Assembly (NCBI GenBank): GCA_003696955.1
Contig: RFGU01000023.1
Coordinates: 1 to 64,000 of the forward strand
Length of the DNA stretch: 64,000 nucleotides
Direction: 5' to 3'
From: Deltaproteobacteria bacterium
GTDB taxonomy: Bacteria > Myxococcota_A > Polyangia > Nannocystales > Nannocystaceae
Shown here: piece after piece, positions 7,757 through 16,943 of the stretch
How the letters are laid out: every line of letters starts with the position of its first letter
Numbering within the stretch: position 1 is the first letter of the stretch
Notes under the pieces: model-generated
The model's database searches: none
Seen by the model: only the letters and a program-made list of their open reading frames with translations
Told to the model about the DNA's origin: nothing
Program-made: the position numbers and the translations under genes

Positions 7757-8746
7757 GTGGATCCTTCGGCACGCTCGGTTGCGGATCGCCCGCGGCCGCG
7801 GTGCTCGGCGCTCGCCATCGCCGTCGCCATCGCCATCGGCCCCACGGACCTGCGGGCCGCCCCAGGGCGCACACCCGAACCCGGCGCGACGGCGACGACC
7901 GGGACCGAAGCCGAGACGGTGGGATCCGAGACAGGACCACGACCGGTCACGAGCCCCCCACCGCCGCGGGTTCCCGTCCCCGCTCGAGACGGCAAGGATG
8001 GAGGGATCGATGGGGCGCAACGTCCCGGGCGACCCGACGGCGGCGGCGGCGAGGCCGTTCCGTCCGGCCGCCCGACGGGATACGTCCTCGCGCCGACCCA
8101 CCGCGGCACCGGCCTGCTCGTGACGGCCGGGCTGCTCGGCGCCGCCGCCCTCGCCGAACACGCCGTCGCCCTCGCAGCCTTTCGCAACACCTGCGGCCTG
8201 GCCGAGGACGGCGTCGAACAGTTCCAACAGGGCGACGGCCAGGATCCGCAGATGCAGGTGCGCGAGGTCGTGGAGATCGGTGCCTTCGCGGTGCTGTGCA
8301 CCGTCTCCATCGGCCCCGCGATCACGCTGCGCGCCGTGGTGCCCGTGTTCCTCGGCGGCTCCCTGGCGGTGGCGGCCGGCGGCGGTCACCTGCGCGGCAC
8401 CTACCTGGGGTATCGCGACACCTTCGTCCGTCCCCGCGCGCGCAAGGAGAAGGTCCTCTTGGGGGTGGGCGGGGCCCTCGTCGCCCTCGGGGGCACCGTA
8501 TGGCTCGGCAGCCGACTTTCCATGCTGCGCAACCGGGTGGGCTGCGACTCGATCACGTGCCTGGCCGGCTACGATTTCGCCACGCTGCACCTTTCGGCCG
8601 CCCTGTCGATCTCCGGGGCGGCCACCTTGGGCCTCGGCCTCGCCTACCGCACGTCCCGCCGCCGGTTCCTGCGGCTCGAAGAACTCCACGTCGTGCCGAT
8701 CGCGGGCCGGGGCAGCGGTGGGATGGCGCTTTCGGGCCGCTTCTAG
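7757..8746 (+). CDS. Hypothetical multi-pass membrane protein with Pro/Gly-rich N-terminus, 329 aa
   Basis: Not recognised. From GTG 7757 the protein begins with a signal-type hydrophobic segment (CSALAIAVAIAIGP), then about 80 residues rich in Pro, Gly, Thr and Glu. Four or five hydrophobic stretches follow: GLLVTAGLLGAAALAEHAVAL, FAVLCTVSIGPAI, AVVPVFLGGSLAVAAGG, VLLGVGGALVALGGTVWLG and LSAALSISGAATLGLGLAY. Two short Cys-containing loops (NTCGL, GCDSITCLAG) could be disulfide-bonded. The design, a signal peptide and Pro-rich linker before small membrane helices, is common among uncharacterised myxobacterial proteins. It is convergent with ftsA and 28 bp from its end. Confidence 0.6.
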   Translation: MDPSARSVADRPRPRCSALAIAVAIAIGPTDLRAAPGRTPEPGATATTGTEAETVGSETGPRPVTSPPPPRVPVPARDGKDGGIDGAQRPGRPDGGGGEAVPSGRPTGYVLAPTHRGTGLLVTAGLLGAAALAEHAVALAAFRNTCGLAEDGVEQFQQGDGQDPQMQVREVVEIGAFAVLCTVSIGPAITLRAVVPVFLGGSLAVAAGGGHLRGTYLGYRDTFVRPRARKEKVLLGVGGALVALGGTVWLGSRLSMLRNRVGCDSITCLAGYDFATLHLSAALSISGAATLGLGLAYRTSRRRFLRLEELHVVPIAGRGSGGMALSGRF

Positions 8747-8774: not shown

Positions 8775-10043
8775 TCAGAACAGCTCCCGCACCCACGAGG
8801 AGAGGCGTCGACCGAGACTCGGGCGGTCGTCGTGCAGATACGTGCCGTCGGTTAGGGGTTCGTGGGCGGCACCGTAGAGCACCAGGCCCACCGCGGTGGA
8901 GAACCGGGGATCGGCAATCATTTGGGAGAAGCCGCCGTCCTTGACGGACACCCGGGCGTCGCCCACTCGCACGCCTCCCACGCCCACCTCGGGGATCCCG
9001 CGGCGCACCGGAACGCGGAAGATGTCCTCGGCGAGTTCGCAGATCCCCTCGAGCTGGGCGGCACCGCCCGTGAGCACGATCCCCGACGCCGCCAGGTCGG
9101 CGCAGCCGCTGTGTAGGAGGCTCTGGTGCGCCAGCAAGAGGATCTCCTCGACCCGGGGCTCGATGATCTCGGCCAAGAATTTGCGCTTGTGCTGCCGAGG
9201 CGGGCGGGGGCCGACGCCCGGCACCTCGATCTCCTCGTCGTCGCCGACGAGCCGGGCGAGGGCGCAGCCGTGCTTGTTCTTGAGCCGCTCGGCCTCGGCC
9301 ACGCTCGTACGCAGGCCATGGGCGACGTCCTGGGTGATCCGCTGGCCGCCCATGACGAGTACCGACGTGAACACGTCGCTTCCCTCGTGATAGACGGCGA
9401 TGTCGGTCGTGCCACCCCCCATGTCGATGAGGGTCACCCCCAGGTCCATCTCGTCCTCGTGCAGGACGGCCAGGGAACTGGCGATGGGTTCGAGCACCAC
9501 CTCCTGTACGTCCAGCTCCGCACGATTGCAGCACTTGACGATGTTCTGGACACTGGTGACGGCGGCGGTGATGACATGGGCCCGTACCTCCATGCGGACG
9601 CCGCTCATCCCGATGGGATCTCGGATCTGGCCCTGGCCGTCGATGATGTACTCGATGGGGATCGTGTGCAGGATCTGGCGGTCGAGGGGGATGTTGACCG
9701 CCTTGGCCTGTTCGAGCACGCGCGCCACGTCCGCCTCGGTGACCTCGCGGTTGCGCATGCTGACCTGCCCGGTGCTGCTGAAGCCCTGGATGTGCCCTCC
9801 GGCGATGCCCACGTACACGGTCTCGACGCGGGCGTCGGCCATTTGTTCGGCCTCCTGCACCGCCGCGGCGATGGACTTGGTCGTCGCCTCGATGTTGACG
9901 ACGACCCCCTGGCGGAGCCCGTCGGAACGATGGGTGCCGACCCCGAGGATCTCGATGCCCGACGGGGTGAACTCGCCGATGATGGCGGCGATCTTCGTCG
10001 TGCCGATGTCGAGGCCACAGATGATTTCACCGATCTCTGCCAT
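8775..10043 (-). CDS. ftsA: Cell division protein FtsA, 422 aa
   Basis: Actin-fold ATPase that tethers FtsZ filaments to the inner face of the cytoplasmic membrane and recruits later divisome proteins. N-terminal phosphate-1 loop CGLDIGTTKIAAIIGEF, the 1C subdomain after residue 80, phosphate-2 loop LIDMGGGTTDIAVY, and 'GIVLTGGAAQLEGI' near the adenosine pocket are all visible. The last dozen residues (GRRLSSWVRELF) form the basic amphipathic membrane-targeting helix typical of FtsA. ATG 10043 has GAAGGAAG at about -8. Its first 17 bp overlap the end of ftsQ. FtsZ is upstream rather than downstream, unlike the common ftsQ-ftsA-ftsZ order. Confidence 0.96.
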   Translation of the reverse strand: MAEIGEIICGLDIGTTKIAAIIGEFTPSGIEILGVGTHRSDGLRQGVVVNIEATTKSIAAAVQEAEQMADARVETVYVGIAGGHIQGFSSTGQVSMRNREVTEADVARVLEQAKAVNIPLDRQILHTIPIEYIIDGQGQIRDPIGMSGVRMEVRAHVITAAVTSVQNIVKCCNRAELDVQEVVLEPIASSLAVLHEDEMDLGVTLIDMGGGTTDIAVYHEGSDVFTSVLVMGGQRITQDVAHGLRTSVAEAERLKNKHGCALARLVGDDEEIEVPGVGPRPPRQHKRKFLAEIIEPRVEEILLLAHQSLLHSGCADLAASGIVLTGGAAQLEGICELAEDIFRVPVRRGIPEVGVGGVRVGDARVSVKDGGFSQMIADPRFSTAVGLVLYGAAHEPLTDGTYLHDDRPSLGRRLSSWVRELF

Positions 10044-11049
10044 GGTGTCTTCCTTCGGAGGGGGGGCGGGAGGCGGATGCGTCGTCGGTCGTCGGGCCGT
10101 TCGTCCGGGGCCCGGGGGTGAGGAAGGCCGCCGTCACCCACGCTTCATCGTCGCGGGGCGCGGCGTCGAGGGCGACGCGACCGAGATCGTCGACCTGCGG
10201 TCCGAGGGCGGCGCGCAGGGCATCGAATCGCGCGAGGGCCTTTCGTAGGTCGCCCCGCCCGAGCCGAAGCTGGGTACCGCGCACGGCCGTGTACAAGGTG
10301 ACGGACCCGTCGTCGTCCACGTGGACCTCGCCAAGGAGCGGACGAGGGCGCTCGGCGTAGGCGGCGATGGCCTCGAGGGCGCGCTCCATGGAAGGCGAGA
10401 TGGCGCCGCCGCGGTCGAGGCGGACACCCGTCACCACCGGCAACCCCACCCCTTCGCCGGGTTCGCGGCGCTTGAACGGACGGCCCGATCGATCGACGAG
10501 GTACATCGCACCGGCCGCAAGCAAGGCCACCGGCTCGTACTCCTCCACCTCCACGATGAGCGTATCCGGCAGGCGACGGGTGACCTCGGCTCGCGCCACC
10601 CAAGGGTGCTCGGTGACCTCGCGGGCGAGGGCCTCGAGATCGACCGACAGGAGGTTCCGGCCGTGGGCCAGCCCGAGGAGGTCCCGCACGGTGTCGGTGT
10701 CCACGTGGGGCGTGGGGCGAAACTCGAGCTTGCGCGCCTCGAACCGCGGTGCACTCGTGGCGTAGGCGTGGGCGCTGGCCACCGCCTCCACGAGCCCCCA
10801 ACCGATCCCGGCGGCCAGGACGAACTTGATCCAGGGAAGTCGGCCCGCGAGCCGCTTGCACGTCGATGCGGCGGTCCGAAACCGGACACCGCGACCGTTG
10901 GACCGGGCGCGCCCCGTTGGGGTCGCGGTCCCCCGGCTTGCGCCGGTTTTCCTGGAATTTCGCCGGTTTCGCCGGTTCCCACGGCGCTTGCGAGCGTCCA
11001 GGGAATGGGCGCGGCGGGACCGGAAGATGCCGAGGCGAGGGGCGTGCAT
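10027..11049 (-). CDS. ftsQ: Cell division protein FtsQ/DivIB, 340 aa
   Basis: Bitopic divisome protein linking cytoplasmic and periplasmic division factors. A very basic N-terminal tail of about 70 residues (many Arg/Asn) precedes one membrane helix (IKFVLAAGIGWGLVEAVASA), then a POTRA domain (FRPTPHVDTDTVRDLLGLAHGRNLLSVDLEALAREVTEHPWVARAEVTRRLPDT region; 'HPWVARAEVTRRLPDTLIVE' is characteristic), then the FtsQ beta domain (LGEVHVDDDGSVTLYT). ATG 11049 is the only obvious start but lacks a clear ribosome-binding site; the long Arg-rich tail is unusual. The C-terminus overlaps ftsA, indicating coupling. Confidence 0.9.
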   Translation of the reverse strand: MHAPRLGIFRSRRAHSLDARKRRGNRRNRRNSRKTGASRGTATPTGRARSNGRGVRFRTAASTCKRLAGRLPWIKFVLAAGIGWGLVEAVASAHAYATSAPRFEARKLEFRPTPHVDTDTVRDLLGLAHGRNLLSVDLEALAREVTEHPWVARAEVTRRLPDTLIVEVEEYEPVALLAAGAMYLVDRSGRPFKRREPGEGVGLPVVTGVRLDRGGAISPSMERALEAIAAYAERPRPLLGEVHVDDDGSVTLYTAVRGTQLRLGRGDLRKALARFDALRAALGPQVDDLGRVALDAAPRDDEAWVTAAFLTPGPRTNGPTTDDASASRPPSEGRHHGRDR

Positions 11050-11205
11050 GGACGTGATCGCGGGAGGGCGTCCCCTCTCGTCGATACCCAGCCGGAAGGT
11101 CCCACCGCAAGAAATCGGGCGGCGCGGGCTTGCGCCATCGCTCCGACGACGGCCCGAACACCGAAAAAATCGGCCGGATTCGGCGAGAAAATGCCCCTCC
11201 GGGCC

Positions 11206-11233
11206 TTGTCAGGCGATCCAACCTTCCTAAAAT
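11206..11233 (+). promoter_or_regulatory. Sigma70-type promoter for the histone gene
   Basis: TTGTCA at 11206-11211 and TAAAAT at 11228-11233 are separated by 16 bp, close to consensus. The predicted start would give a 5' leader of about 70 nt before the histone ATG at 11309. The same TTGTCA -35 occurs in front of the TPR lipoprotein gene (35443-35471). Confidence 0.6.
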
Positions 11234-11308
11234 GGCCGCGAGCCGCCCAGAAACGACCTTGCGGCGAACCGTTCAACATTCCCACGAAGCATCACGCGAA
11301 GGAGCATC

Positions 11309-11518
11309 ATGGCCAAGTCCAAGTCCACTGGTAAGCGCAAACCCCGAGAGATCGTCGTCGTCGGTTCCAAGATCAAGGACGTCGTCCGCCAAGCTGGGCT
11401 GCGCAGCGATGGAGAACTCGTCCAGGCCGTTTCCGAGAAGGTCCACGACCTGCTCGAGGCGGCGATCAAGCGCGCGCAGGAGAACAAGCGCGGCACCGTG
11501 CGCCCGTACGACCTGTAG
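11309..11518 (+). CDS. Bacterial single-fold histone, 69 aa
   Basis: Short chromatin protein with a histone fold, comparable to the Bdellovibrio histone Bd0055 and to archaeal HMfB; expected to dimerise and bind DNA. Residues 1-13 are a basic tail (six Lys or Arg). Helix 1 is about 18-29 (GSKIKDVVRQAG), loop 1 carries R32 and S33, the long helix 2 runs about 34-59 (GELVQAVSEKVHDLLEAAIK), loop 2 is KRGTV. The diagnostic R-x-T pair (R61, T63) and the Asp seven residues after the Arg (D68) match the R52/T54/D59 spacing of HMfB, where they bind DNA and form a fold-locking salt bridge. Helix 3 is cut to a few residues, ending PYDL. AAGGAG lies 5 bp before ATG. The gene has its own promoter and two hairpins after it, and sits between ftsQ and ftsZ on the opposite strand. 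Confidence 0.85.
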   Translation: MAKSKSTGKRKPREIVVVGSKIKDVVRQAGLRSDGELVQAVSEKVHDLLEAAIKRAQENKRGTVRPYDL

Positions 11519-11524
11519 CATCGT

Positions 11525-11550
11525 GAAGGTGCGCCCTTGGGCGCACCTTC
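11525..11550 (+). terminator. Perfect 12-bp hairpin after the histone gene
   Basis: GAAGGTGCGCCC and its exact inverse flank a TT, starting 7 bp after the histone stop. It reads as an 11-bp stem with a CTTG tetraloop. There is no T-run right after it, but the position is as expected for a terminator. Confidence 0.7.
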
Positions 11551-11559
11551 GTCCCCACT

Positions 11560-11592
11560 GCGACGGAATCGCGATCTTCGCGGTTCCGTCGC
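11560..11592. terminator. Second hairpin between the convergent histone and ftsZ genes
   Basis: GCGACGGAA pairs with TTCCGTCGC around an inner CGCGA/TCGCG stem; on the + strand it is followed by TTCGTTT. Its position between two converging genes suits a bidirectional terminator that also ends ftsZ transcription. Confidence 0.6.
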
Positions 11593-11618
11593 TTCGTTTG
11601 GTGGGTGGACGCGACGGA

Positions 11619-12905
11619 TCAGCGCAGGTAACCCGAATCTTCGCGCCGACGCATATAGGCCGGAATCTCCACCGACTCGTTCGACGGTGCCGGATCGCGG
11701 GACCACGGTGAGGGTGCAGGTTGCGGCCCGGTGGCGCCCACCGGGTAGCGACTTGCGGTTCCTGCGGGCTGCGGGGCGACCGGCGCGGCAGGCGGCGGTA
11801 CGTGGCGCGGGTTGAGGAGCCGCGGCTGGGCCGGATAGACCCCGGTCTCCTCGGGCGCATAGGGCCGCTCACGGCGGGGCGCAGGTGGCGTCGCGCCCAT
11901 GCGACGTCGTTGCCCGGAATCGGCCGATTTCGCGACGTCGGCCTGGGCATCGAAGCCCGTGGCGATGACCGTGACCTGGATCCGGTCCTGCATGGCCTCG
12001 TCGATGACGGCGCCGAAGATGATGTTGCACTCCTCGTGGGCCTCCTCCTGCACGATGCTCGCGGCCTCTTCGACCTCGTGCAGGCTCAGGTCCGGCCCCG
12101 CCGTGATGTTGAGCAGGATGCCCTTGGCGCCCCGGATGCTCATCTCACCGAGCAGCGGACTGTTGATCGCCGCATGGGTCGCCGCCGATGCGCGGTGCTC
12201 GTCGGTGGCGATGCCCATGCCCATCAGGGCGCGCCCCTGCTCGGCCATGATGGTGCGCACGTCGGCGAAGTCCACGTTGATGAGGCCGGGGACGGTGATG
12301 AGGTTCGACACGCCCGCCGTGGCGTGGAAGAGCACGTCGTCGGCCAGCTTGAAAGCCTCTTGCAGCGGCGTCCGCTGGTTGACCACCTCGAGCAGCCGCT
12401 GGTTGGAGATCGTGATGAGGGTATCGACCGACTTCTCAAGTTCCTCGATGCCGGCCTCGGCCGCTTGCGCCCGCCTGCGGCCTTCGAACCGGAACGGACG
12501 GGTGACCACGCCGACGGTCAGGGCGCCCGCCTCCCGCGCGATCTGGGCCACCACGGGTGCGGCGCCCGTCCCCGTGCCGCCGCCCATGCCGGCGGTCACG
12601 AACACCATGTCGGCGCCTTGGACCGCCTCGGCGATCTCTTGCACGCTCTTCAAGGCCGCCTCGCGTCCGCGGCTGGGATCGGCCCCCGCCCCGAGCCCCC
12701 GGGTCAGGTCGTCTCCGAGACGGATCCGTCGGGGGGCGTGGCTGGCCTCGAGGGCCTGCACGTCGGTGTTGGCAGCGACGAAATCCACGCCCTCGAGACC
12801 GTGGGTGATCATGTTGTTGACCGCGTTGCCACCGGCACCGCCGACGCCGATCACCTTGATCCGTGCGTGGTCCATGTAGTTCTGGTCGAGTTCGAAGTGG
12901 GGCAT
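11619..12905 (-). CDS. ftsZ: Cell division GTPase FtsZ, 428 aa
   Basis: Tubulin homologue that forms the Z ring. Visible: [14 protein letters not shown] at about 20, the tubulin signature [15 protein letters not shown] at about 104-118, the N-x-D-F-A-D region ([11 protein letters not shown]) contacting the next subunit, and a C-terminal peptide [10 protein letters not shown] that recruits FtsA and other partners. Between the GTPase core and that tail is a Pro/Ala-rich linker of roughly 90 residues. GAGGAC lies 8 bp before the ATG. It is downstream of aroE and upstream of ftsQ-ftsA on the same strand, with the histone gene interposed on the other strand. Confidence 0.97.
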
Positions 12906-13948: not shown

Positions 13949-13950
13949 GG

Positions 13951-14033
13951 TGCGAGGGAAGGGACTCGAACCCCCACGGCCAAAGGCCACACGGACCTGA
14001 ACCGTGCGCGTCTACCAATTTCGCCACCCTCGC
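13951..14033 (-). tRNA. tRNA-Leu, anticodon CAG
   Basis: On the minus strand the RNA begins GCGAGGGTGGCGAAATTGG and folds with a perfect 7-bp acceptor stem (GCGAGGG/CCCTCGC), discriminator A, an anticodon arm CACGG-TTCAGGT-CCGTG giving anticodon CAG, a long variable arm (GTGGCCTTTGGCCGTG region) as in class II tRNAs, and a T-arm with GTTCGAGTC. The CCA end is not encoded. It reads CUG, a frequent codon in this GC-rich genome. Confidence 0.96.
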
Positions 14034-14123: not shown

Positions 14124-16943
14124 TCAACCTCCGTCCGGCCCCACCCCGTCGTCGTCCCATGCGTCGTCGAGGGCCTCGACGACGACGCCCCCCTGGGCAT
14201 GGGCCGCAGGCGCGCTGCCCGGCGTGCTCGGCAGGCTGGAGCGGTCGGCCACGATCGTCTCGGGGACGCCGCTCTCCGCGGGGGCCTTGGGTCCGCGCAT
14301 CGAACGGTCGAGATCGGCGAACACCTCCTCGACCCGGGGGTGCTCGCCCGAATCGAGCGGAAACCCCTCCGGACCGATCCCGGCCCGGGCGAGCTTGGCG
14401 CGCTCGCTGCCGAGCAGGCGCTCCTGCTCCACGATCCGGGCCTGGGCCGCGGCGAGCATGGCCCGGTTGAGCTGCAACTCCTCCCGCGCCTCGTCGAGTT
14501 GTTCCTTGGTCTGTTCGAGCTGGGCGAGGCTCGCGGCGAGCCGGGCCGCGTGACGGTCGGCAGCATCCGACATCTCCCAGATCCGTTGTTCCGCAGCCTC
14601 GAGGCGGGCGAGCATCTGCTCCTGCTCGGCCAACCGGTACCGCAGCTCCCGGTCCACCCGCGGGGGAAGATCGCCGGAGATGGCCTCTGCCTCGATGCCG
14701 CGGGCGACCGCGGCCTGCAAGGCCGCGACCGCGGCTTGGGCATCCGCCGGCCACGACGGGTCCACCGGCATCTTGGCGTACCGCGCCACGTCCCCGGGCA
14801 GATTCGCCTGGGCCTCCGGACCGGTGAACGACCGGGCCGCGCCTTGCTCGAGGTGGGCGACCTTTCGCTCGAGGGCAGCGCGCTCGACGGCCGCGGACTC
14901 GAGGCGTCCTTGCAGGGCATCGCGCTCGGCCTCGGCCGCCGCCAGCGCCCGACGAAGACCGGCAAGTTCGTCCTCGGCGGTCTTGGCCCGGGCCTCGGCC
15001 GAGGTCCGCTCGGCCTTGGCGACCTCGAGGGCCTCCTTGAGCTGCGCGACGAGAGCCGTCTTGGCCGAAAGCTCCCGCTCGAGCTCCTCGGCGCGCGCGG
15101 CCGCGGCGCGGCCCCGTGCTTCGACCGAGGCCAACCGGTCGAGCAGCTCGGCGCGCTCGGCCCGCAGGCGGGTGAGGGCTTCGGATCGCTCCCGCAGCGT
15201 CCGTTCGAGCTCGCCGAGCTGGGCGCGCAACGGTTGGGCCTCCCCTTCGCCCGCCGCAGGCGGCGGCGTCTTTGCGAGCGCTTCCTCGCGCGCCCGCAAC
15301 GTAGCCGCAAGTTCCGCGCGAGCGACCTCGGCCTTGCGCAACTCGGCCGAAAGCTGCGCGACTTCCTGGCTGCGTTCGGCTTCCGCGCGTTCGGTCCACG
15401 CGACCCGTTCCTTGAGCGCCTCGAGTTGGGCGACCAGGCGGGCGGCCTCGAGCTGCCCGCGTTGGGCATCGTCCCGTGCGGCCCACAAGCGCTCCTCGAG
15501 GTTGGCGATCTCCCGGTTGCGACGGGCCAGCTCCTCGCGCAGCCGATCCCGGTCGTGGGCGATCTCCGCCAGGAGCCTGCCGTGCTCGCCTCCGCTCGCC
15601 TCGGCGTCACGGGCCGCCACGCGCTCGCGGCGATCGTCGGCCAACCGCTCACGCAGGGCGGCCACCTCGCCTTGGGCCCGGGACGCTTCCTCGATCTTCG
15701 CCGCCAGCATTTCGGCCTGCTCGGCCAGGCGCCGCCGCAACAGCTCGACCTCCGCCTCGGCACGCTCGGCCAGCTGGCGGGTCCCCTCCCGTTCGGCCAC
15801 GGCCACGTCGAGCTGGCGGCGCAACTCGTCCCGCTCGGCGACGGCACGCCGCGCTTCGACATCGGTGGCCTCGAGGGCACGACGGACCTCGGCAAGCTCC
15901 CTGGTCTTCGCGTCGAGCGCTTCGGAAAGACGACTCACCGCGCGCTCGTGCTCGGCGACGCTTCGTCGAGCGACCGCCACATCGGTCCGTGCGCGCTCGA
16001 GGGCGTCCTGCTTGCGGGCGAGTTCTTCGGAAAGGCGCGCCCGTTCATCGGTAAGCTCGCGAAGGCGCCCTTCGAGTTCCTCGAGGCGACGCTCGAGGCC
16101 CTTCCCCTCCTCCTCCCGTTCGGCGAGGGCGCGTTCGAGACGTGCGATGGTCTGCTCCGCAGCTTCGGCCCGCGTGCGGGCCCGGCCGAGATCGAACTCC
16201 ACGGTCGCGAGGCGCGCGCGAACCTCGGCCGCGGCGTTACGCTCGGCCTCGAGGGCCGCGGTGGCCTCGGTGAGGGCCGCAGCGAGGGAGGCACCGTCCG
16301 CCGCCCCGGACGGGGCGGCACGGGGGGGCACGGGCACGAGGATGCACTGCAACGAGACGTGGGCCGGCAGCTCCTCGGGCGCGGCCACGGCCACGTAGTG
16401 TTCGGGCTCGGGGTCCTCGGCGAGCAAGGACTCCACCAGGTCCAGCTCGGGCGCGGCCTCGTCGGCGTCGAGCACCGGGGTCACGCTGTAGCCCTCCCAC
16501 GGAACCTGGGCGAGCAGCGCGACGTCCCCGAAGGCCGCCGAAAGCTCGGATTCGAACGACCAGAAGTCCACGCGGTCGCCGTGGGCCCTGATGCGCATCA
16601 CCAGCACGCCGTCGGCCGCGAGCAGCCGCCGCAGCCACCGCAGTGCCCGCTTGCGTTCCACCGGGGGCTGCTCTCCGAACCCGTCCAGCCAGACCACCAC
16701 GTCGAACATGGCCTGTGCCGTCTGGGCATCCTGTTCCGTCCACCACTCGACCCGGGATGCCTCGCCTCGATCGTTCGACGGCCCAGCGGCGACCGCGACG
16801 ACGCGCGCAGCCCCCGCCGCGACCAGCCCGGGGGCTCCTTCGGCGGCCGACGCGCCCAGGACGAGAACCCGACGGCCCCGGACCCAGGCTTCGATGGCCG
16901 CATATGCTGCGAGGACGTCCACGTAGACGACGCGCCGGATCAT
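14124..16943 (-). CDS. Long coiled-coil protein with an N-terminal methyltransferase-like domain, 939 aa
   Basis: Not a known named protein. Residues 1 to about 195 look like a Rossmann methyltransferase fold (RVLVLGASAAEGAPGLVAAG as the SAM loop, then FDVVVWLDGF and LRRLLAADGVLVMRIRA as strand 4 and 5 regions). The glycine loop is imperfect, so it may be a non-catalytic binding domain. From about 220 to 620 the chain is almost unbroken heptad-rich coiled coil (many Glu/Arg/Ala/Leu). A shorter coiled coil follows at about 740-880, then a Pro/Asp tail. No signal peptide or membrane segment is seen, so a cytoplasmic filament or scaffold is likely. Such head-plus-coil proteins in this phylum include polarity and motility factors, but no specific match is claimed. 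Confidence 0.75.
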   Translation of the reverse strand: MIRRVVYVDVLAAYAAIEAWVRGRRVLVLGASAAEGAPGLVAAGAARVVAVAAGPSNDRGEASRVEWWTEQDAQTAQAMFDVVVWLDGFGEQPPVERKRALRWLRRLLAADGVLVMRIRAHGDRVDFWSFESELSAAFGDVALLAQVPWEGYSVTPVLDADEAAPELDLVESLLAEDPEPEHYVAVAAPEELPAHVSLQCILVPVPPRAAPSGAADGASLAAALTEATAALEAERNAAAEVRARLATVEFDLGRARTRAEAAEQTIARLERALAEREEEGKGLERRLEELEGRLRELTDERARLSEELARKQDALERARTDVAVARRSVAEHERAVSRLSEALDAKTRELAEVRRALEATDVEARRAVAERDELRRQLDVAVAEREGTRQLAERAEAEVELLRRRLAEQAEMLAAKIEEASRAQGEVAALRERLADDRRERVAARDAEASGGEHGRLLAEIAHDRDRLREELARRNREIANLEERLWAARDDAQRGQLEAARLVAQLEALKERVAWTERAEAERSQEVAQLSAELRKAEVARAELAATLRAREEALAKTPPPAAGEGEAQPLRAQLGELERTLRERSEALTRLRAERAELLDRLASVEARGRAAAARAEELERELSAKTALVAQLKEALEVAKAERTSAEARAKTAEDELAGLRRALAAAEAERDALQGRLESAAVERAALERKVAHLEQGAARSFTGPEAQANLPGDVARYAKMPVDPSWPADAQAAVAALQAAVARGIEAEAISGDLPPRVDRELRYRLAEQEQMLARLEAAEQRIWEMSDAADRHAARLAASLAQLEQTKEQLDEAREELQLNRAMLAAAQARIVEQERLLGSERAKLARAGIGPEGFPLDSGEHPRVEEVFADLDRSMRGPKAPAESGVPETIVADRSSLPSTPGSAPAAHAQGGVVVEALDDAWDDDGVGPDGG

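Follow-up and report, generated by a model that had tools for sequence, protein, structure and literature searches.

A small alpha3 histone, best placed among the FtF histones, encoded beside ftsZ in a Nannocystaceae-type myxobacterium

The window, a stretch of 64,000 nucleotides from a Nannocystaceae-type myxobacterium, encodes within its division-gene region a 69-residue protein that an earlier note took for a compact bacterial histone. The locus raises the question of which kind of histone this is, how it is expressed, and what its place beside ftsZ means. The following genes and signals are involved.

11309-11518, plus strand: histone gene (FtF-type alpha3), 69 residues, assigned from the match to the Leptospira histone HLp, AlphaFold2/Foldseek, and a dN/dS of 0.03
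11299-11304, plus strand: Shine-Dalgarno sequence AAGGAG, read from the sequence
11525-11592, plus strand: two strong hairpins, a probable terminator, between the histone gene and the convergent ftsZ
11619-12905, minus strand: ftsZ, convergent neighbor (PF00091, PF12327)
10027-11049, minus strand: ftsQ, divergent neighbor (PF08478, PF03799)
8775-10043, minus strand: ftsA (PF14450, PF02491)

The protein of the reading frame at 11309-11518 is MAKSKSTGKRKPREIVVVGSKIKDVVRQAGLRSDGELVQAVSEKVHDLLEAAIKRAQENKRGTVRPYDL. The same-genus orthologue is 97% identical and differs from the window gene at 20 nucleotides, just 2 of which change a residue, giving a dN of 0.013, a dS of 0.47, and a dN/dS of 0.03. 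Two classes of related histones can be told apart: class I, which includes the window gene and carries NKRGTVRP, and class II, a related copy with mostly N-x-RSTVRP. A histone of one class or the other is present in 28/28 other family genomes searched, a set that includes Plesiocystis pacifica, Enhygromyxa salina, and Paraliomyxa miuraensis (Nannocystaceae group, Myxococcota). A spurious reading frame is ruled out by the orthologue, the low dN/dS, and this distribution; the gene is real, strongly conserved, and under purifying selection. The reading frame and its own ribosome-binding site are as the earlier note had described them, and so is the double hairpin 3' of the stop codon, which folds with -61.8 kcal/mol (z = -7.0); its second hairpin is scored terminator-like by a scan that yields 0.9 such sites by chance. 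One histone is detected in the window genome (completeness, 94.5%), with a chance-level match alone (E = 0.94) for a second. Three HU/IHF-family proteins are encoded as well, which rules out the histone as the sole nucleoid protein as in Leptospira; unlike Leptospira, the window genome would pair a histone with HU/IHF.

The identification as a histone is supported by a curated family, by sequence matches to solved histones, and by the predicted fold. A histone-fold profile search, proposed beforehand as a check, places DUF1931 barely over the Pfam cutoff and CBFD_NFYB_HMF under it, and NCBIfam has no family for the protein. The DUF1931 match (PF09123) covers only positions 21 to 53 of 138, and a DUF1931 pseudodimer with two folds per chain is ruled out by this partial match, the length of 69 residues, and the single fold. 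The best match among solved structures is HLp (PDB 9QT0; E = 5.8e-10 by phmmer), and a profile of 46 homologues reaches HLp with an E-value of 4.9e-22 and also matches HBb and HTkC. The single-chain AlphaFold2 model has a mean pLDDT of 80, with 88 to 92 across residues 21 to 69 and a low-confidence tail. Foldseek ranks HLp first (root mean square deviation of 1.2 Å over 56 columns), followed by HBb and HTkC, and the nine best matches are all alpha3 histones. The predicted helices span residues 19 to 28 and 37 to 58, with a single turn (HHH) at 66 to 68; the full helix 2, the short helix 3, and the basic N-terminal tail pointed out from the letters are thus all present. The short helix 3 is no oddity, since it is what defines the known alpha3 family, whose truncated third helix was described by Schwab et al. 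in 2024 (PMC11390915). The model shows the 3- to 4-residue helix 3 and shortened helix 2 of alpha3 histones. It lacks both the long helix 2 of the HMfB type and that type's full helix 3 of 10 residues, its own helix 3 comprising 3.

Three sequence elements lie upstream of the ribosome-binding site.

11206-11233, plus strand: promoter TTGTCA-16-TAAAAT, 10/12 matches, conserved in class I orthologues
11215-11219, plus strand: GATCC in the promoter spacer, from the sequence
11164-11192, plus strand: phased A/T tracts, UP-element-like, directly 5' of the promoter, at 11/11 class I loci examined

The proposal that the gene has its own promoter is borne out. The site is the only promoter-like one in the region (1 found, compared with 0.1 in shuffles) and is common to 11 class I loci, with the GATC word at a fixed position in the spacer; at two further class I genes (L012 and L099) it is not seen. 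The composite promoter pattern has a single match in the window genome; a search of six other genomes gives matches at the histone gene only, or none. The A/T tracts have a period of about 10 to 11 bp with G/C between them, lie at about -7, -17, -27, and -39 from the -35 box, and are in register with it; in 8/8 representatives, tracts fall at -28 to -26 and at -18 to -16, with none at -23 to -20. Phased clusters occur at 11/11 class I promoters, compared with an expectation of ∼0.01 per slot estimated from the same loci. Shuffles of single loci attain such phasing in 1 to 17%, so that it is the joint in-register occurrence that counts, among 11 loci that are related and not independent and for a pattern noticed post hoc. 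Phased tracts are absent upstream of the three HU/IHF genes of the window genome and at the corresponding position in class II. The tracts and the GATCC spacer are seen at the same place in L032 to L038, L041, L042, and L057, in register across genera. Ownership of the element by the divergent ftsQ gene is ruled out: in L041 it accompanies the histone with ftsQ 3 kb distant, and it is retained in Plesiocystis (L038), where ftsQ lies outside the stretch examined. Retention of the element in L038 and L041, where the histone lacks ftsQ or ftsZ as an immediate neighbor, assigns it to the histone.

UP elements are A/T-rich sites that RNA polymerase contacts through its alpha subunits, at positions matching such tracts. 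The phased array resembles an extended UP element, and this likeness would mean strong expression, which the promoter features and FtF histones elsewhere likewise suggest; the good expression supposed in the earlier note now has stronger promoter evidence behind it. The array and the GATCC spacer might instead form a feedback operator for the histone or another regulator. The ∼10-bp spacing of tracts in register in all representatives, their absence at the HU/IHF and class II genes, and the uniqueness of the composite promoter would suit such an operator, but the tract positions also suit binding of the polymerase alpha subunits, a simpler explanation, and the operator reading is considered unlikely.

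The protein could belong to one of two kinds of alpha3 histone. Face-to-face (FtF) histones, previously reported in Myxococcota, are set apart by a tetramer held through R48 and N52 (numbering of the FtF profile), both of which are missing from the bacterial dimer histones (PMC11390915). In HLp, the tetramer is made by R49, N53, and R55, with D62 as part of the RD clamp; this histone wraps ∼60 bp of DNA and binds nonspecifically (Hu et al. 2025, PMC12701072). The ungapped alignment adds 6 to the HLp numbering, so that these four residues correspond to R55, N59, R61, and D68 of the window protein. Invariant among the 46 homologues are V18, K21, R55, N59, R61, T63, V64, and D68. They include the R61/T63/D68 pattern stressed in the earlier note, which appears as RxTxxxxD together with the helix-1 lysine K21, and also R55 and N59, the decisive residues that the note had missed. 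Of the nine HLp residues at the DNA, S14, K15, K17, G29, and T57 recur unchanged in the window protein (S20, K21, K23, G35, and T63), K21 and T27 are conservatively replaced by R27 and S33, and T56 is replaced by G62. At the tetramer contacts, S52, T61, and F63 of HLp become E58, Y67, and L69.

A histone of the Bd0055/HBb type, bending DNA as a dimer without forming tetramers, would be consistent with the third rank of HBb among the folds, its match by the profile, and the occurrence of this class in Myxococcota_A (PMC11390915). It is nevertheless improbable: HLp has better E-values than HBb by sequence and by fold, and the residues that mark the FtF class, absent from bacterial dimers, are present and invariant in the window protein, and on these residues the bacterial-dimer class is rejected and the protein placed with the FtF histones, not with the Bd0055-type dimers. 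Histone identity thus stands, with HLp and HTkC, both tetrameric FtF histones, as nearest kin. The protein agrees with the FtF class in every defining feature open to sequence or model comparison and is best filed there.

The place of this FtF histone gene between ftsZ and ftsQ, singled out earlier as striking, is secured by the Pfam domains of FtsZ, FtsQ, and FtsA. On the minus strand, the order is aroE (shikimate dehydrogenase domain confirmed by Pfam), ftsZ, the histone on the opposite strand, ftsQ, and ftsA. Since histone and ftsZ lie on opposite strands, their cotranscription is impossible in the window genome; the histone has its own promoter, and the hairpin pair separates it from ftsZ. 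Within the family, a class I histone and ftsZ share one contig in 10/14 genomes (G000, G001, G003, G009, G011, G013, G016, G017, G019, and G022), mostly within ∼250 bp of each other and at most ∼1.8 kb apart. In G005, the histone stands by ftsQ-ftsA at a contig end, with ftsZ at the end of another contig; in G002 and G007, it retains ftsQ-ftsA within ∼3 kb, and in Plesiocystis (G008), it has been relocated. The Nannocystis-like genome G027 has ftsA-ftsQ and ftsZ-aroE ∼8 kb apart and only a class II histone at a distant locus. Among the family genomes, no class II copy is near ftsZ. Three other families of the class, f20 (G069, G098, and G103), f24 (G143 and G479), and f16 (G092), carry a histone gene on the ftsZ strand, ∼1 to 2 kb 3' of ftsZ, and aroE comes after it where seen; in G036, G037, G045, G053, G078, and G083, the histone does not share a contig with ftsZ. 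The adjacency, for which a check in relatives had been suggested, therefore holds in those 10 genomes and three further families without being universal. The linkage is old and has survived rearrangement; the protein tree has too few columns to decide whether it has a single origin. A literature search found no published description of an ftsZ-histone linkage.

The surroundings show further features. At 8775 to 12905, the division genes run ftsZ-ftsQ-ftsA and not, as is usual, ftsQ-ftsA-ftsZ. This swap is found across the family, and other families of the class retain the usual order. A tRNA-Leu (CAG) at 13949 to 14033 separates the shikimate dehydrogenase gene from a reading frame of 939 residues at 14124 to 16943, which has no Pfam match.

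That the protein is a local histone-fold regulator of the ftsQA/ftsZ locus and not a global DNA organizer would explain its position and the retention of the linkage in four families through rearrangements with class II paralogues never linked, but this is very improbable, as the characterized FtF histone binds DNA nonspecifically (PMC12701072), several genera have no ftsZ-linked copy or a relocated one (Plesiocystis and Nannocystis) with ftsZ still present, and linkage may persist without function. It would also be a long shot for the histone to set its own dose by wrapping the A/T array of its own promoter, with the position beside ftsZ tying nucleoid packing to division; if real, such a dose-setting histone would be a bacterial equivalent of histone-dose control. 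The position next to ftsZ is taken here as a conserved linkage to which no function is assigned, any link to division being conjectural.

The joint best explanation, held to be very likely, is an alpha3 FtF histone that forms a wrapping tetramer and serves as an abundant nucleoid protein in a Nannocystaceae-type myxobacterium. Its direct observations are the gene, the fold as predicted, the conserved residues, the conservation of the promoter, and the conserved position. A strong sigma70-type promoter of its own, combined with an extended and phased UP-like element, would drive transcription of the gene. Two chains would cross via helix 2 to give a dimer, and two dimers would be linked at either end by R55, N59, and R61 into a torus-shaped tetramer. 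By analogy with HLp and HTkC, this tetramer would wrap DNA, ∼60 bp without sequence preference, via S20, K21, K23, R27, loop 1, and T63, aided by the lysine-rich tail, and the histone would be an abundant nucleoid protein beside HU/IHF.

The experimentally characterized bacterial histones are from Bdellovibrio and Leptospira. Cultured Nannocystaceae (Plesiocystis, Enhygromyxa, and Nannocystis) carry one or more histone genes, and because the window genome has HU/IHF too, this family suits tests of the division of labor between histone and HU. For the regulation of a bacterial histone, the unusual promoter and the conserved linkage to ftsZ offer testable leads.

More distant histones are also seen in relatives. 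Histone domains in L101 (minus strand, about 8001 to 8174), L102 (about 8001 to 8174), and L103 (minus strand, about 8001 to 8180) sit behind an N-terminal cysteine/histidine-containing stretch and resemble the published ZZ histones. FtF-like histones at L075:3782-4096 and L077:5372-5665 have long lysine/alanine/proline-rich N-terminal tails of about 30 to 45 residues with KKKAAPKKKA-type repeats, like linker-histone tails. L089, from a genome of 1.6 Mb (G118) in the same class, has two tandem histone folds in one reading frame around 8001 to 8400.

The earlier description of such histones as rare does not hold in this phylum, since a superfamily match is found in 152 of 379 Myxococcota genomes (a phylum sample, with several histone classes counted together) and close relatives are published. 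A 2024 paper (PMC11317129) shows, in an alignment only, histones from the same group of organisms, namely Plesiocystis pacifica (A6GF99), Enhygromyxa salina, and Nannocystis exedens, as entries that may be one paralogue or another; the Plesiocystis and Enhygromyxa histone loci match most of the window protein's length with about 62 to 81% identity. HBb/Bd0055 from Bdellovibrio bacteriovorus (PDB 8CMP and 8FVX) shares the alpha3 fold and the RD clamp with the window protein, whereas its class is without the FtF tetramer residues and bends DNA as a dimer. HTkC from Thermococcus kodakarensis (PDB 9F2C, PMC11390915) shares the alpha3 fold and, at the tetramer interface, the R and N residues, with ∼33% identity, but archaeal FtF histones generally are without an N-terminal tail. 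HLp from Leptospira perolatii (PDB 9QT0 to 9QT2, PMC12701072) has in common with it the fold (1.2 Å), the size, the truncated helix 3, the N-terminal tail, the R/N/R tetramer residues, the RD clamp, and most DNA-contact residues. It differs in the three tetramer contacts (E, Y, and L in the window protein), with ∼38% identity, in the absence of accompanying HU/IHF-family proteins, and in the location of its gene, which adjoins smc and not ftsZ. The window protein is thus best regarded as an ordinary member of the recently described DNA-wrapping tetrameric histone type and not as a new type; the new observations are the conserved linkage to ftsZ and the conserved, distinctive histone promoter.
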